Positions 8,540 through 15,743 of a stretch of 64,000 nt of DNA are shown piece after piece. The translations under genes were made by a program, and so were the position numbers. Source of the stretch: an uncultured Pseudomonadota bacterium. Its GTDB lineage: Bacteria; Bdellovibrionota_B; Oligoflexia; Oligoflexales; CAIYRB01. The stretch lies in the NCBI GenBank assembly GCA_903928445.1, contig CAIYRB010000002.1, positions 1 through 64,000 of the forward strand, given 5' to 3'. Position 1 is the first letter of the stretch, and the number at the start of each line of letters is the position of its first letter. The notes beneath the pieces are model-generated. The model saw only the letters and a list, made by a program, of their open reading frames with translations. It was not told the DNA's origin and ran no database searches.

Positions 8540-9442
8540 TCACTCTGGGAATCGCTTCAGATCCAACCAGTATTCGGGACGTCCCAGCGGCACCGTTGTT
8601 GGCAGCGTCGGATTGATCAGCTCGATGACCCGGCGTTTGCTGATTTGGAATTGCCGCACCAGGCGACCGACGCCGACCACCTTTTCGCGCAATGCATCGC
8701 GCGTGCCATCGGCGATGCCGCGCTCGAAGCCAAGCCGAATCCGCTCAGCTAGGGCGGTCGCATCGGGCCTGACAAAGAAGTAGTCGGGCGCGACATAATG
8801 CAACATCAGCGACGACTCGACCTTAAGCGGCATGCCGCTACGCTGCTGCAGCTCCGAGACTGGTTCATGGAGAGCCCTAGGGAAATAGTCGAAGCGGCCT
8901 TTCACCAGCATGGTAAACAGGTCGTCAAAACGATCGGCGGTATCAAGCTTGAGTTTATTAGCGACGAGGATTTCGGTCGACTGCCAGTCGTGCATCTGCC
9001 CGCCGGTAAGCAGACGCAGGTCCTCTAAGGTCTTAAGCTTGGCAAACCTAGCCTCATCCCCAGCTCGGATCAGCAAGATCCGGTAGCCGTGCAGGCCTTG
9101 AAATATGGGGATAAGAATCGGACGCAGGGTCTTCTCGCGTGCGATCGTCGCGACATTCCAAGTAACATCCAATTCACCGGTCAAAACCAGTCGAATGTCG
9201 CGTGAATGCGTCCCGCCGTCCATCATGGTGATCTGACATGGTCCGTATTCTGCCTCGGTCTTCGCCAGGGCCATCTGCAGTAGCGCCAACGGATAGGCGT
9301 TCGGTGCATCTGCCGTCATAACCTTATGAATTTTTATCGCGCAGGGTTTTGCCATGGGCGCGTCTGCCGCAAGCGCAGGCGCCCAGGCACCGAGGACCGT
9401 TGCCGTCAGGACGCCCAAGACCTTTGCTAGTAAACTAAGCAT
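8540..9442 (-). CDS. Periplasmic substrate-binding-like protein
   Basis: A 300-residue protein with a cleavable signal peptide (hydrophobic stretch, then PALAADA as the likely cleavage region) and a type 2 periplasmic-binding fold by overall character. Segments such as GELDVTWNVATIAREKTLRPI and PLALLQMALAKTEAEYG resemble solute-binding proteins of the amino-acid or TAXI-like group. No permease or ATPase gene lies next to it, so its role in uptake is unproven; orphan binding proteins often serve as sensor ligand-binding parts. It starts 16 bases after the stop of the upstream MBL-fold gene, which suggests one transcript. The mature part has two Cys residues, Cys33 and Cys63. Confidence 0.75.
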   Translation of the reverse strand: MLSLLAKVLGVLTATVLGAWAPALAADAPMAKPCAIKIHKVMTADAPNAYPLALLQMALAKTEAEYGPCQITMMDGGTHSRDIRLVLTGELDVTWNVATIAREKTLRPILIPIFQGLHGYRILLIRAGDEARFAKLKTLEDLRLLTGGQMHDWQSTEILVANKLKLDTADRFDDLFTMLVKGRFDYFPRALHEPVSELQQRSGMPLKVESSLMLHYVAPDYFFVRPDATALAERIRLGFERGIADGTRDALREKVVGVGRLVRQFQISKRRVIELINPTLPTTVPLGRPEYWLDLKRFPE

Positions 9443-9457
9443 GGGGTTCCAGCACTT

Positions 9458-10858
9458 TCACTGAATGACGATGTGTTTGGCTTCACACGCAAGAATTGCT
9501 TGCACCCCGAAGCGTTGCAAGATGTGAGCAGCCAGCGCCCGCTGTGCCTGCGGTTCACCATGATTCAGTACGATCTGGGCCGGGGGTTGCGCCATATGGC
9601 TAAGCCACGTCAGCGTATCGACATAATCCGCATGCGAGGAGAGGTGGTCCAAGGTGACGATTTCGGCGGCAATCGGCACTTCGACATGATGGATCCGTAG
9701 AGTCGCTAGATCAGCGCTATGATCCTGCAAGAACCGGCCTTTGGTCCCCTCCGCCTGATAGCCACAAAAGACAACGGTACTGCGCGGATCAGGCAGCCTA
9801 GCCTTGAGATGATGCAGGATACGGCCGCCGTTAAGCATGCCGGAGGCCGAGATGACGATCATCGGACCATCGCGCATGCAGCTAAGCATCGACTCATCGA
9901 CCGTCTGCGACACCTCAAAAAGCCGGGGTCGAAACGGGTCGGCACTGCCAGTAAAGGCCGACTGGAGGACTTGGTCCTCAGGATGGCGCAAGCAGACCTC
10001 CATGGCCGCGGTGGCCATAGGACTGTCTAGGATTACTGGCACGGCGGGAATCTTGCCCTGGTCCTCAAGTAGCCGCAGCATATAGGTCAGCTCTTGGGCA
10101 CGGCCGACGGCAAACGCCGGGATGACTAAGACCCCACCGCGGGCCATGGTGCGGCGAACGACCTCGGCCAACGCGACCAAACCGTCCTCACGCGGCTGCA
10201 AGCGATCGCCGTAGGTGGACTCGAGCACCAGCACGTCGGTGCCATGGATGTACTCCGGCGGCCGCAGGTGATGCGAGCGGTCATTGCCCAGATCGCCGGT
10301 AAAGGTCAGCGTCCGCATGCCCCGGTCACCAAGATCGGCGGCGATTTGAATCATGCTGGCGCCGATAATATGCCCGGCACGCACCAAGCGAAACGACAGC
10401 CCTTCGGCGAGCGGGATCCACTGATCGCGGCGATGCGGGACCAATCGAGAATTAGCCAAGGCAGCATCCGCTGCTGTGAAGAGCGGCTCGGCGGGGCTGT
10501 GATTTGAGTAGTGCGTACGATTGGCAAAGGCTGCAGCCTCTTCCTCCAAATGTGCCGCATCGAGCAGTAGGATTTGGGTCAGGTCGACGGTGCCCTGGGT
10601 GGCATGGATAGGGCCGGCAAATCCCTGCTGGCAGAGTCTCGGCAGGTACCCCGTATGATCGAGGTGCGCATGCGTCAGCAGCACCCCTGCTAGACTGCTG
10701 GGCTGGATACTAAACGGCAACCAGTTTCGTTCGCGCTTGGCCTTATCGCCCTGGAATAAACCACAATCGATGAGCCACGAACGACCCTGGTAGGTCAACA
10801 GGCTGCGGCTTCCTGTGACGGTATCGTCCGCCCCGAGTACTTGGATGTTCAGCGGCAC
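9458..10858 (-). CDS. MBL-fold beta-CASP ribonuclease-like protein
   Basis: The 466-residue product has the metallo-beta-lactamase motif THAHLDH (His63, His65, Asp67, His68), a GHIIGASM segment, a TGDLGND motif, and the beta-CASP insert with a C-terminal RMMBL-type tail (HLSSHAD, LNHGEPQAQ). Proteins of this group (YsH1/CPSF-73 relatives) cut or trim RNA and need two zinc ions. The start is the GTG at 10858: GAGGGG lies about six bases upstream and the product then begins PLNIQVLGADDTVTGS, the usual family N-terminus. A longer in-frame opening to 10987 adds unrelated residues. The gene lies downstream of tRNA-Arg on the same strand and precedes the binding-protein gene. Confidence 0.9.
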   Translation of the reverse strand: MPLNIQVLGADDTVTGSRSLLTYQGRSWLIDCGLFQGDKAKRERNWLPFSIQPSSLAGVLLTHAHLDHTGYLPRLCQQGFAGPIHATQGTVDLTQILLLDAAHLEEEAAAFANRTHYSNHSPAEPLFTAADAALANSRLVPHRRDQWIPLAEGLSFRLVRAGHIIGASMIQIAADLGDRGMRTLTFTGDLGNDRSHHLRPPEYIHGTDVLVLESTYGDRLQPREDGLVALAEVVRRTMARGGVLVIPAFAVGRAQELTYMLRLLEDQGKIPAVPVILDSPMATAAMEVCLRHPEDQVLQSAFTGSADPFRPRLFEVSQTVDESMLSCMRDGPMIVISASGMLNGGRILHHLKARLPDPRSTVVFCGYQAEGTKGRFLQDHSADLATLRIHHVEVPIAAEIVTLDHLSSHADYVDTLTWLSHMAQPPAQIVLNHGEPQAQRALAAHILQRFGVQAILACEAKHIVIQ

Positions 10859-11775: not shown

Positions 11776-12861
11776 CTATTTTTTGGCGACAGCCAATTCG
11801 GCGATCAAAACGTGGCGTACATCGGTGTCACTGACCGTCATCTCCTTCACCGCAAGATCCTTCATGATGTGTAGGAGTAGAGTCGCACTCGCTGGTGCTT
11901 TGATGGCGTAGTCGAGGGCGTCGGCGTCGCTGGCGAGTCCGAGGGCGGCGAGGACCTCGGGAGATTTGGTTCCGCGTAGGAGAGGAACCCTAGATTTAGG
12001 CGCCAAGGCGCCCAGGGTGGAGCGCAGGGCTTGAATCTCCGACGCAGCGATGAGGGGATGGCCCAGATCTGCGGCAAGAAATTTACTAATGCTGCCGGTA
12101 CCCACCAGTCGAGTACCGCGCAACAAGTCTGGCGCCAGAGGCATTGGCGCCTGAGCTTCCAGGGCTAGGTCGCAGGCCTGAAACTGAGCGGCGGTGAGGC
12201 TCCCTTCGGGAAGCCACTTGGTGACGATCTGATTGCTGCCGATCTGCGTACTGCCTCCTGAAGCAAAGGCGTCGCGCGTGCCGACGGCTAACTGAAAACT
12301 GCCGCCACCCAAGTCCAGCGTGGCATAGCGGTCATCAGCATGACCGACGCTGCGAAATTTGGCGATCGCTCCCAAATAGCCATAGTGGGCTTCCTCTGCG
12401 CCGGTCAATATGCGTGCCCGCACCACGCCAAGATCATGCTGAATCTTTGCTAAAAAGTCGCGACCGTTGGTGGCGTTGCGAGTAACGGCGGTGGCGATGA
12501 GCGCGACCGAGCCTGGATCTATCCCAAACTCTTCGTGGGCCGTAGTGACCAGGGATTGAATTGCCGCGAGAGTCCGGTCTTGATTCGCCGTAGGAATCGA
12601 CTCACCACTGGCGACCCCCTCGCCCAGGCGAGTGCTTAACCGCACATCTTTGACCGTGACCATCGAACCATCGGTCGATCGTTGCTGCACGAGCATTTTG
12701 GCGCCGGAGCTACCCATATCGATGGCGGCAAAATAAGAAGACTTCGATGCACTAGACGCCAGCGTTTCACTCACGGCAGGTCCCCTGCAGGCGGCAGCAA
12801 AGATCAGGCCTGCAGCAAAGCCACGACGCAAAGGCCCAAGCATTTGCTCAACATGTCCCAT
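11776..12861 (-). CDS. Ppx/GppA-family phosphatase lipoprotein
   Basis: A 361-residue ASKHA-fold protein of the exopolyphosphatase/pppGpp-phosphatase family. It shows the family's first phosphate loop (AIDMGSSGAKML, about 46-57), the catalytic-glutamate region TGAEEAHYGYLG (about 153-164) and the second loop LDLGGGSFQLAV (182-193). Unlike the usual cytoplasmic enzymes it begins with a lipoprotein signal, GLIFAAAC with lipid-site Cys25. Only the core two domains are present; there is no HD domain. Start 12861 has GGAG eight bases upstream. It lies 26 bases after a CHAD-like lipoprotein gene, probably in one operon. Together they suggest polyphosphate handling outside the cytoplasm; this is inference. 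Confidence 0.8.
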   Translation of the reverse strand: MGHVEQMLGPLRRGFAAGLIFAAACRGPAVSETLASSASKSSYFAAIDMGSSGAKMLVQQRSTDGSMVTVKDVRLSTRLGEGVASGESIPTANQDRTLAAIQSLVTTAHEEFGIDPGSVALIATAVTRNATNGRDFLAKIQHDLGVVRARILTGAEEAHYGYLGAIAKFRSVGHADDRYATLDLGGGSFQLAVGTRDAFASGGSTQIGSNQIVTKWLPEGSLTAAQFQACDLALEAQAPMPLAPDLLRGTRLVGTGSISKFLAADLGHPLIAASEIQALRSTLGALAPKSRVPLLRGTKSPEVLAALGLASDADALDYAIKAPASATLLLHIMKDLAVKEMTVSDTDVRHVLIAELAVAKK

Positions 12862-12887
12862 GGCGTGATCTCCGAGGATAGAAGTAT

Positions 12888-13901
12888 TTATAGGTTCAAA
12901 GTCGCAAGGTGTAGGGTGTTCTTCTGCCAGGTCTTCACCGCGGCCCACTCCATATCGAGCTGAATCAAAAGATCAGCGGTTTTCGGACTTCTAGCTTTCA
13001 CAGCGTCTTGATAACCCACCAAACGGTCATGCAATTGGCCATACTTGCTTACCAGGTCCTTAATGATACTCAATTGATCCTTTGCCTGCGCGGATGGCGC
13101 GAGGATGGTCGGGAAATAGTCGTACATATCGAGGATCACCCGAGACCTTTTGCGAAAGTTATGGAAGTCATCGATGTCCTTATCGTTGCTGAGATGGCCT
13201 AGCGCGAGCAAAGCAGGCTCGGCCGCCTGCAATTGGACGATTTGCCCCTTCGTCAGAGCATGCAGGGCGTCGCTTGCCGGTGTGTTAAACGTTGGCACTT
13301 GCGCAACCGACCGCCAGAACAACTTAGACAAATCGTCCTTGTTCCGGGTCCAGGCCTTCGCTGCAGAAATATCGCCGAGAAAATCCGCCAACTGCTGTTG
13401 AAAATCCGGTGCCAGATATTTGCTTAAAAACTTGTCCACACCAGCGCGTTGGGTCGCGAGTTCCTGTGGGTCATAGGTGATGTTCGTCTGCCCCGCGGCC
13501 TGAGGGACGTCGTACAGGTCTTTAAACGTACCGACTTTCTCATAGCCTTCGTCGAGGAGCGGGCGAAGCTCAAGAAAGAAGTCGTGCTTGCGATCTCCAG
13601 GCAAGGCATACACTAGGATATCGATGTAAGCACGCGCCTTGCCGAGAGACTTGCGCAACACCCGCGCATCCGGCGGCAAAGTCTGATCGGTGAAGGTCTT
13701 CGCCTGCGCCGTCGTTGCGGTGATTACGGCGCTTAGCTGTTGTTTGGCCAGCTCGCCGTAGGTGACCTTTGGCGACGTCGTTGCTGCGGCGTCCAGGCCA
13801 CTAGCGGCCGACTGGCTCTGCGGGGTGCGGCAGCCGAGGCCAAGAACGAGTATGAGGCCAAGGGACCAAGACAACGAACGATTTAAAGTCTTAAGACGCA
13901 C
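12888..13901 (-). CDS. CHAD-like lipoprotein
   Basis: The 337-residue protein has a lipoprotein signal (LGLILVLGLGC, Cys24). The mature part is all-helical by composition and contains two halves that resemble the CHAD (conserved histidine alpha-helical) domain: VLRKSLGKARAYIDILVY (81-98) and DDFHNFRKRSRVILDMY (244-260), followed by a helix IIKDLVSKYGQLHDRLVGYQ. Basic residues at these positions bind polyphosphate in known CHAD proteins. The GTG start at 13901 has GGAG about eight bases upstream. The next gene encodes a Ppx/GppA-family lipoprotein, which strengthens the CHAD reading, since both families act on polyphosphate. The similarity is distant, so confirmation by structure prediction is needed. 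Confidence 0.75.
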   Translation of the reverse strand: MRLKTLNRSLSWSLGLILVLGLGCRTPQSQSAASGLDAAATTSPKVTYGELAKQQLSAVITATTAQAKTFTDQTLPPDARVLRKSLGKARAYIDILVYALPGDRKHDFFLELRPLLDEGYEKVGTFKDLYDVPQAAGQTNITYDPQELATQRAGVDKFLSKYLAPDFQQQLADFLGDISAAKAWTRNKDDLSKLFWRSVAQVPTFNTPASDALHALTKGQIVQLQAAEPALLALGHLSNDKDIDDFHNFRKRSRVILDMYDYFPTILAPSAQAKDQLSIIKDLVSKYGQLHDRLVGYQDAVKARSPKTADLLIQLDMEWAAVKTWQKNTLHLATLNL

Positions 13902-14087: not shown

Positions 14088-14156
14088 ATATCATACACTT
14101 TAGGATATAAAATTGACGGATGATGGATCAATATTATATCCTAAAGTGTATGATAT
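14088..14156. promoter_or_regulatory. Operator of the hipA-hipB locus
   Basis: Two 22-base arms, 14088-14109 and 14135-14156, are perfect inverted copies separated by 25 bases. Each arm holds TATCATACACTTTAGGATA or its complement, which is close to the TATCC-N8-GGATA operator bound by HipB of Escherichia coli but with one altered half. The pair sits 31 bases before the hipA start. Autorepression by the downstream HipB-like protein is likely. Confidence 0.7.
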
Positions 14157-14187
14157 TTTATCATTGCGACCTCTGCTGGATACCACT

Positions 14188-15453
14188 ATGGCCGATGCTC
14201 TAACCCTTGAAATTCACGACAACAACCTAGGCTGGGTGAACGCCGGAGAGCTAACCTTTGCCGCCCGCGGGGACGTGCGTTGGGAGTACGACCTGGATTA
14301 CGCCGCCGACCATTTAGGCCGGCAAGACAGCGCCGCCTTCTCGATCAATATGCCGGTAGACGTACGCTCGCATAAGGGCGAGCTTCCTCCCTTCATTCTT
14401 GATCTGATGCCCCAGGGGGAACCACTCAAGCGGCTCCTGCGACGCTACCAGATTGGCCGTGATGATGCCTTTGATGAGATTTTGGCGCGGGTTCCCTTGG
14501 CCTCGCCAGGCAATATCCGCATTGCAGAACCATGGCGACAGGTGGATCACCTACGCGACGGCTATCATGAGGCCGGCTTTCTGCGCGAAGATATCATCTT
14601 TTATAAACGGGAATTCGTCGATTATATGGAGCGTCACGGCGCGCCCATTGGCGGGACCACGGGAGCAGGGGGGGGATCACCCAAGTTCCTGCTTCGCCAG
14701 GACGCGGCAGGAAGATTTCATGCCGATGGAATGCTCGACGATCGTTTGACGAAGCGGGCCGTACTTGTGAAATTCCCCTATACAGACAGCCAGAATTCCC
14801 GGGAGCTGCTGCGGGTAGAAAAGATCTATTACGATTTTCTCAGAGAATTGCCGTTGATCACCGGGGATGCGCTCGAGTTTGATCATGATGTGTTGTTTAT
14901 CAATCGCTTTGATCGCCAACGTGACGATGCCGGACGGCTGTGCTATCACGGACTGGAGAGCTTCTACAGCGCCCACGGCATTGCCGTGCATGGAGCTAGG
15001 CTGCAGCATGAGGACAACCTGCGGCTGTTGGCACGATGTTCGTCAGAGCCCGTAGCGGACATGATTGAGTATATCAAGCGCGACCTAGTCAATGTCATCC
15101 TCGCTAACAGCGACAATCATGGCCGCAATTGGTCCCTGATTAAGCGACCGAGCGAAGTGCGCTTGTCCCCTATCTACGATGTGACTGCAATGCGCTTTTT
15201 TGAAGGCGATTTTATCGTCGAGTTGACGCGCTGGGAGCCGCCTCATGTGCCGCTTGCTGCGCGTTTAGCCTGGTTGCAGCAGACGTTTGCTTCGCTGCGC
15301 GAAAGGTTAATTCCAGAGTTGCGGCTTTTTCTTACGGCGCTTGGCAACGTTGATGAACGACTGAGGTTACTAGGAGTAAACCGCGATTTTTTGTCACGTT
15401 CCAAAATCGAACGCGACCAGCTCATGAGTGAGCTAAAGACGACTTTACTGTAG
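14188..15453 (+). CDS. hipA: HipA-like serine/threonine kinase toxin
   Basis: This 421-residue protein has the HipA N-terminal domain (LEIHDNNLGWVNAGELTF), the Gly-rich phosphate loop (TGAGGGSPKFLL) and the kinase core. The catalytic Asp309 lies in NSDNHGRNW and the metal-binding Asp in YDVTAM. Known HipA toxins phosphorylate GltX or other tRNA synthetases and cause growth arrest. The ATG at 14188 fits the family N-terminus; an open frame upstream to 14113 runs through the operator and is unlikely to be translated. The antitoxin-like hipB gene follows 20 bases downstream, the reverse of the E. coli order. Confidence 0.88.
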   Translation: MADALTLEIHDNNLGWVNAGELTFAARGDVRWEYDLDYAADHLGRQDSAAFSINMPVDVRSHKGELPPFILDLMPQGEPLKRLLRRYQIGRDDAFDEILARVPLASPGNIRIAEPWRQVDHLRDGYHEAGFLREDIIFYKREFVDYMERHGAPIGGTTGAGGGSPKFLLRQDAAGRFHADGMLDDRLTKRAVLVKFPYTDSQNSRELLRVEKIYYDFLRELPLITGDALEFDHDVLFINRFDRQRDDAGRLCYHGLESFYSAHGIAVHGARLQHEDNLRLLARCSSEPVADMIEYIKRDLVNVILANSDNHGRNWSLIKRPSEVRLSPIYDVTAMRFFEGDFIVELTRWEPPHVPLAARLAWLQQTFASLRERLIPELRLFLTALGNVDERLRLLGVNRDFLSRSKIERDQLMSELKTTLL

Positions 15454-15473: not shown

Positions 15474-15743
15474 ATGGCAAAACTACGCGATAAAGATAAA
15501 CGCAACCAGATCCGCCATGAACTCGATGTTCGACTAGACGCCAGTGGAGTGCCCGTTGCCGAATTGAGTAAGAGCTTGCGCAAGATGCTGGGTAAGGATC
15601 AGGTGGAGTTTTGTCAAATGGTGGGCATCAGCTTATCGACACTGCGCAAGATCGAACAGGGGCGCGGCAATGTGACGGTGGCGACCCTGGACAAGGTCCT
15701 GGCACCGTTTGGACTGAGCTTGGCCGTGGTGCGATACGGTTAA
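15474..15743 (+). CDS. hipB: HipB-like antitoxin, XRE family
   Basis: An 89-residue DNA-binding protein with a helix-turn-helix at about 46-75 (LGKDQVEFCQMVGISLSTLRKIEQ is the core region, given here only as a landmark by its GISLSTLRKIEQG part). It ends GLSLAVVRYG, similar to HipB tails. A basic N-terminal stretch of about 20 residues (KLRDKDKRNQIRHEL) precedes the domain. It should neutralise the HipA-like kinase encoded just upstream and repress the locus at the 14088-14156 palindrome. GAGGG is placed upstream of the ATG. Confidence 0.85.
   Translation: MAKLRDKDKRNQIRHELDVRLDASGVPVAELSKSLRKMLGKDQVEFCQMVGISLSTLRKIEQGRGNVTVATLDKVLAPFGLSLAVVRYG

Follow-up and report, generated by a model that had tools for sequence, protein, structure and literature searches.

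Predicted exported CHAD-like protein and adjacent Ppx/GppA-family lipoprotein as a candidate envelope polyphosphate unit in an uncultured Oligoflexales bacterium

Introduction

The CHAD, CYTH, Ppx and PPK families are generally regarded as parts of a polyphosphate (polyP) machinery that resides in the cytoplasm. One of the closest described systems is E. coli YgiF, a cytoplasmic triphosphatase, in which a CYTH and a CHAD domain are contained in one protein of 433 amino acid residues (aa). We have analyzed a 64,000-nt stretch of DNA from an uncultured Oligoflexales bacterium (assembly GCA_903928445.1, contig CAIYRB010000002.1, positions 1 to 64,000), which is termed the window. The window contains two adjacent genes on the minus strand, encoding a CHAD-like protein and a Ppx/GppA-family protein, both with predicted lipoprotein-type signals. 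We lean slightly towards the reading that the two genes constitute an envelope polyP capture-and-hydrolysis unit, by which inorganic phosphate (Pi) would be delivered outside the inner membrane. This gene pair resembles YgiF in combining CHAD with a phosphoanhydride hydrolase, as does a related locus, L003, in which exported CYTH and CHAD genes overlap by 4 bp. It differs from YgiF in that the two are separate exported proteins and the window enzyme is of the Ppx type; the window genome gives no CYTH match, and CYTH and CHAD are separate genes in L003 as well.

CHAD proteins or phosins of known structure (CtCHAD, 6qv7/6qva; RcCHAD, 6qv5; PptA, 6rn5) are similar to the window protein in having two four-helix bundles and an H-x-x-R-x-x-x-R signature. 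The window protein differs from them in its predicted lipoprotein-type signal and its great sequence divergence, with no Pfam match when searched alone. According to PMC6537752, solved CHADs bind polyP by way of a basic pore and His and Arg residues of this kind; its main text uses none of the terms signal peptide, periplasm, lipoprotein and secret*. Phosins are described on polyP granules, and polyP as mainly cytoplasmic, in the available part of PMC10892726, in the main text of which the terms signal peptide, periplasm and lipoprotein do not occur. In contrast to this cytoplasmic, granule-attached location, export-type N-termini are predicted for the window protein and its relatives. A CYTH-CHAD protein is presented in the accessible part of PMC6416229, which names no export.

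Closeness of a CHAD gene to ppx or ppk is shared with the chad-ppx clusters of acidophilic archaea and the ppk-chad clusters of Acidithiobacillus, as far as these are described in the same part of PMC10892726. The gonococcal surface pseudo-capsule is an example of extracytoplasmic polyP in a Gram-negative species; the genes that move this polyP outward are not identified, and no CHAD protein is named, in the part of PMC10237660 at hand. The author of the preliminary description of this locus knew of no described system with this layout. No description of an exported CHAD was found in our searches of open-licence PubMed Central papers; chad-ppx clusters are known from the archaea mentioned above. 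A family of exported CHAD proteins, some of which are encoded next to hydrolases and Pi transporters, would allow extracytoplasmic polyP to be approached genetically.

Results and discussion

Gene pair and export signals

Both open reading frames are confirmed on the minus strand, the 337-aa CHAD-like frame being followed by the Ppx/GppA frame, which ends at 11776. The features are as follows.

12888..13901, minus strand: CHAD-like predicted lipoprotein, exported; 337 aa, GTG start; signal at about residues 1-23, Cys24, CHAD fold at residues 43-337
13830..13901, minus strand: predicted signal peptide and lipobox-like Cys of the CHAD-like protein (..LVLGLGCRTP..)
12862..12887, minus strand: intergenic gap of 26 nt with a GGAG Shine-Dalgarno-like site
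11776..12861, minus strand: Ppx/GppA-family predicted lipoprotein; 361 aa, ATG start at 12861; Cys25; GGGSFQ phosphate motif
12787..12861, minus strand: predicted signal peptide and lipobox of the Ppx-like protein (..GLIFAAAC..), pattern match

The CHAD-like gene has TTGGAG upstream of its GTG start. For the Ppx gene, ATG 12861, which has CGGAG upstream and lies 26 nt past the stop codon of the CHAD-like gene, is preferred over the listed GTG 12948, because the latter start overlaps the upstream gene by 61 nt. The short gap with its GGAG site, on one strand, suggests that both genes are read on one transcript. The G+C content of the pair by codon position is unremarkable when compared with that of five other window genes.

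The N-terminus of the CHAD-like protein is VRLKTLNRSLSWSLGLILVLGLGCRTP, and that of the Ppx-like protein, counted from ATG 12861, is MGHVEQMLGPLRRGFAAGLIFAAACRGP. Both are short and basic at first, continue with a hydrophobic stretch and then reach a Cys in a lipobox-like context, as judged by eye and with a simple pattern. The AAAC of the Ppx-like protein fits this pattern, as does the VGSC of its 62% identical relative in genome G036. The GLGC of the CHAD-like protein does not match it, having Gly at -3. The relative of this protein in G001, the contig of which ends inside the gene, is 76% identical over the 74 residues present and retains ..LALGLGCRTP.., comprising the signal and the Cys. 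The lipobox-like Cys is supported because signal and Cys are kept in this relative while the linker past the Cys diverges. Among the 15 members of the CHAD-like family, the N-terminal stretch is the most hydrophobic of the protein in 14; in the exception, L066, an internal stretch is level with the N-terminal one (1.86 vs 1.83). Lipid anchors had been proposed for both proteins in the preliminary description, and lipoprotein-type signals are indeed predicted for both from their sequences. The CHAD-like protein is predicted to lie outside the cytoplasm because of this signal.

Fold, signature and family of the CHAD-like protein

The predicted structure of the CHAD-like protein contains two up-down four-helix bundles in the CHAD arrangement. 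Its structural alignment to solved CHADs is co-linear over almost the whole protein, with 9 to 13% sequence identity. The proposal that this helical protein is CHAD-like is thus supported by structure prediction. The CHAD profile of Pfam, PF05235, gives no match at E<=5 with the window protein alone; it matches 11 of the 15 family members at E<=1, with a best value of 3.4e-8, and L079, L080 and L066 exceed its curated cut-off of 25.6 bits. CHAD chains rank first in profile searches of the PDB, with E-values of 0.0023 for profile A6 and 0.013 for profile A8, in which the row L084 begins two codons before its Met. The H-x-x-R-x-x-x-R signature is present in the window protein as H247-R250-R254, and it is kept across the family (His in 13/15, the first Arg in 14/15, the second Arg in 14/15). 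L007 and L008, which lack the His, belong to a single genus. Which half of the solved CHADs matches this signature is ambiguous, as sequence alignments cross-match the halves.

A circular permutation of CHAD was considered, since, in several members, HMMER paired the N-terminal half of the family with the C-terminal half of CHAD, and the C-terminal half with the N-terminal one. This idea was rejected in view of the normal order of the matches in L081, L082 and L084 and of the co-linear structural alignment. Internal two-fold symmetry is the probable cause of the cross-matching.

Two divergent exported CHAD-like paralogues (L079 and L082) are found on different contigs of genome G120. Genome G048 contains two N-terminal and two C-terminal CHAD-like fragments at contig ends (contigs C8, C12, C18 and C24; L063 and L064), which looks like two nearly identical copies that were split during assembly.

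The exported CHAD-like family may have the CHAD fold and a ligand other than polyP, for example a different oligophosphate, a metal (copper, for instance), a phosphorylated polymer of the cell wall, or nucleic acid. The low identity to solved CHADs, the loss of the His in two members and the charge of the window protein, which is not net basic (36 Lys and Arg vs 36 Asp and Glu past residue 30), are consistent with this alternative, as is a copper role proposed for CHAD proteins in the available part of PMC10892726. It is nevertheless quite unlikely in our estimate, in view of the retention of the signature by most members and of the genes for PPK1, Ppx, CYTH or Pi transporters that adjoin some of them. 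The lack of a net basic charge also weighs against the envelope polyP unit, as do the Gln and the sub-threshold NTPDase match of the Ppx-like protein and the limited adjacency and co-occurrence of the pair, which are described below. This alternative and the two discussed below overlap, and the likelihoods given for them are not meant to sum to certainty.

Family and substrate of the Ppx-like protein

The Ppx/GppA profile PF02541 matches the second protein with an E-value of 5.5e-28 (98.7 bits vs a cut-off of 27), in agreement with its earlier assignment to this family. All 14 distinct PDB sequences matched at E<=0.01 are named exopolyphosphatase or GppA. The protein shares PF02541, the conserved phosphate motifs and the EEA motif with E. 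coli PPX and GppA and with A. aeolicus Ppx (1t6c). It differs from these enzymes in being a predicted exported lipoprotein, in reading GGGSFQ instead of GGGSTE, and in its length of 361 aa, as compared with the 537-codon open frame of the other Ppx of this genome. In the EEA motif, the second Glu is retained, within LTGAEEAHYGYLG of the window protein and LSGDDEARYGYLG of the G036 relative; the Glu of this motif is aligned, via the PDB matches, with E121 of E. coli PPX.

The alignment of the phosphate-binding motif has 13 rows, of which L028, L035, L036, L038 and L046 were left out as being in the wrong frame. All six usable comparison rows (L009, L027, L029, L033, L037 and L085) read GGGSTE or GGGSVE, whereas both lipoproteins, of the window and of G036, read GGGSFQ, with Gln in place of this Glu. 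The Glu is usual in Ppx and is not known to be required for family membership. The substrate of the Ppx-like enzyme is uncertain because of this change in the phosphate-binding motif. Gln at this position is typical of secreted nucleoside triphosphate diphosphohydrolases (NTPDases), and the GDA1/CD39 NTPDase profile PF01150 matches residues 148-204 below threshold (18.6 bits vs 24.9). Taken together with the Gln in both members of the clade, these observations point to an alternative in which the CHAD-like lipoprotein binds polyP outside the cytoplasm and the Ppx-like protein is an apyrase-like phosphohydrolase of nucleotides (nucleoside tri- or diphosphates, or guanosine pentaphosphate), sharing an operon with it merely for phosphate salvage. 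This alternative is unlikely, since the match to PF02541 is far stronger, every PDB match at the threshold given above is to an exopolyphosphatase or GppA, and the second Glu of the EEA motif is retained.

The window genome contains a second Ppx (the 537-codon frame) and one PPK1, and gives no match for PPK2 or for CHAD of Pfam. Of the 58 genomes of the class, which are also those covered by the phylum-level search of the window's group, 40 have a Ppx match at 1e-5. Only that of G036 is close to the window protein; the remaining matches have E-values no better than 5e-16 and are mostly located in open frames of more than 500 codons. Among plasmids, 32 records were matched by the Ppx lipoprotein, the best 10 of which are below 60% identity, none covering 80% of the query. 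No relative was confirmed in viral scans with profiles A2 and A3.

Distribution of the pair

In the class set, the CHAD-like protein is found in 9 of the 58 genomes and the Ppx lipoprotein in 2. Both genomes with the Ppx lipoprotein also contain the CHAD-like protein (P 0.022 including the window genome). Without the window genome, which was chosen for having both, the co-occurrence is weak, with one Ppx genome among the 8 CHAD-like genomes of 57 (P 0.14). In G001, the broken contig leaves only part of the CHAD-like gene, as described above; no CHAD-like protein was found in G002-G005, which are congeneric with it and have one distant Ppx match each. In a second group of 368 genomes, relatives of the CHAD-like protein are found in 8. 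No Ppx lipoprotein was found in this group at E<=1e-25, and this empty result proves little, the set having no positive control.

The preliminary description made its reading depend on conservation of the Ppx and CHAD pair. Conservation as a unit is not supported: the adjacency was seen in no second genome of the 58, and no Ppx lipoprotein at the above threshold in the 368. In G036, the two genes are unlinked, on different contigs, and the CHAD-like protein, of only 253 aa, no longer has the H/R signature. The lack of a second adjacency, the unlinked Ppx lipoprotein of G036 and the dependence of the co-occurrence outside the window genome on a single genome speak for an alternative in which the two lipoproteins are chance neighbors, each with a function of its own. 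Chance neighborhood is quite unlikely in our judgment, and a shade less likely than another ligand; against it are the spacing of the genes by 26 nt on one strand, the ties of both families to polyP, the co-occurrence of the same two genes in G036, and the polyP or Pi genes located beside some other members.

Neighborhoods of exported CHAD-like relatives

Sixteen loci were compared (the window, L056-L061, L065 and L079-L086), with neighbors called by Pfam matches over the cut-off. A polyP or phosphate neighbor is present in five of them (window, L056, L057, L080 and L085). Beside the window, they are as follows.

L003/L056: gene for an exported CYTH protein, with a 4-bp overlap with that for the exported CHAD protein
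L004/L057: Pit transporter, separated by 3 bp
L080: Na/Pi cotransporter at 2.8 kb and PPK1 at 4.2 kb, mixed strands
L085: PPK1, divergent, at 120 bp, and Ppx at 2.2 kb

Without the window and L086, 4 of 14 loci have such neighbors, with a probability of 1.4e-4 to 4e-3 against a background that is assumed at 2 to 5% per locus rather than measured; with the window, 5 of 15 do (8e-6 to 6e-4). The extracytoplasmic polyP role proposed earlier is supported because relatives of the CHAD-like protein lie near polyP or phosphate genes above this assumed background. On the other side of the balance, 9 of the 16 loci have no recognizable polyP gene nearby, as judged from 10 flanking proteins scanned with Pfam (0 to 2 per locus, none of L061) and the rest by eye. 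What recurs is an exported CHAD, accompanied in a minority of loci by a polyP or Pi neighbor that varies.

In L080, a metallophosphatase, ApaH-like by eye, adjoins the CHAD-like gene. L080:2490-9965 and L086:1579-8392 (the latter read by eye) share an exported CHAD-like protein, a metallophosphatase, two exported proteins without assignment, a Na/Pi cotransporter and PPK1; the CHAD-like gene is broken in L086, of G179. The exported proteins of 284 aa and 286 aa in L080 and L086 were suspected by eye to be CYTH, and this was not confirmed (no Pfam match, BLASTP E 0.85, hhalign probability 0.6). In L083, an exported phytase-like protein (9087-10334; PF13449, 4.6e-37) is encoded directly downstream of the exported CHAD-like gene. 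A short stretch of an exported 256-aa protein of the same locus weakly resembles CYTH (BLASTP E 0.011; hhalign E 6.5e-4, with a probability of 28 over 34 columns), which is a hint at most, the protein having no PDB match. The PDB match of profile A9 to 3sy3, which we take to be CYTH, is biased, as A9 includes the CYTH protein of L003. Two congeneric genomes have a similar-looking exported protein of about 255 aa next to the CHAD-like gene or its fragment (L058:7088-7858 and L064:8855-9613); no Pfam match over the cut-off was obtained for the L058 copy, which was scanned as L006:2368-3135.

Proposed mechanism

The open reading frames, the membership of the Ppx family and the gene neighborhoods were established computationally, and the CHAD fold and the export-type N-termini are supported by prediction; polyP as the ligand, catalysis, joint action of the two proteins and scavenging of Pi are inferred. 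In the envelope polyP unit, the CHAD-like protein would be exported and probably lipidated, and long polyP, or another oligophosphate, would be held in the pore that lies between the two bundles of four helices. The neighboring Ppx/GppA-family lipoprotein would hydrolyze the terminal phosphoanhydride bonds of the bound chain, releasing Pi that could be taken up from the periplasm or the cell surface. The polyP may come from the medium or from cells that have been lysed or preyed on, or it may have been exported by the cell itself. The polyP module of the preliminary description is retained in so far as the CHAD fold, the lipoprotein-type signals and the polyP or Pi neighbors of relatives argue for it, and given up as a unit that is conserved.

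The window pair may belong to a wider exported-CHAD family, in which the neighboring hydrolase, kinase or transporter would vary by lineage (exported CYTH, Pit, Na/Pi cotransporter, PPK1 or Ppx). We tentatively propose, with somewhat less than even confidence, that members of Bdellovibrionota/Oligoflexia have a dedicated extracytoplasmic polyP economy around exported CHAD, with interchangeable hydrolases (Ppx lipoprotein or exported CYTH) and Pi transporters (Pit or Na/Pi), which harvests polyP released from other cells or manages their own envelope polyP. If this is a nutrient system of predatory lineages, which is a guess, polyP in other cells would be a phosphate source.

Flanking genes

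The flanks of the gene pair are unrelated to it, with a dCMP-deaminase-like gene on one side and a pair of HipA-like and helix-turn-helix genes on the other (14113-15453 and 15474-15743, plus strand). An inverted repeat of 29 nt (14088-14116 / 14128-14156; 97% complementary, 11 nt between the arms) is located at the start of the HipA-like gene. It is probably the operator of a hip-type toxin-antitoxin pair, located between that pair and the CHAD-like gene.
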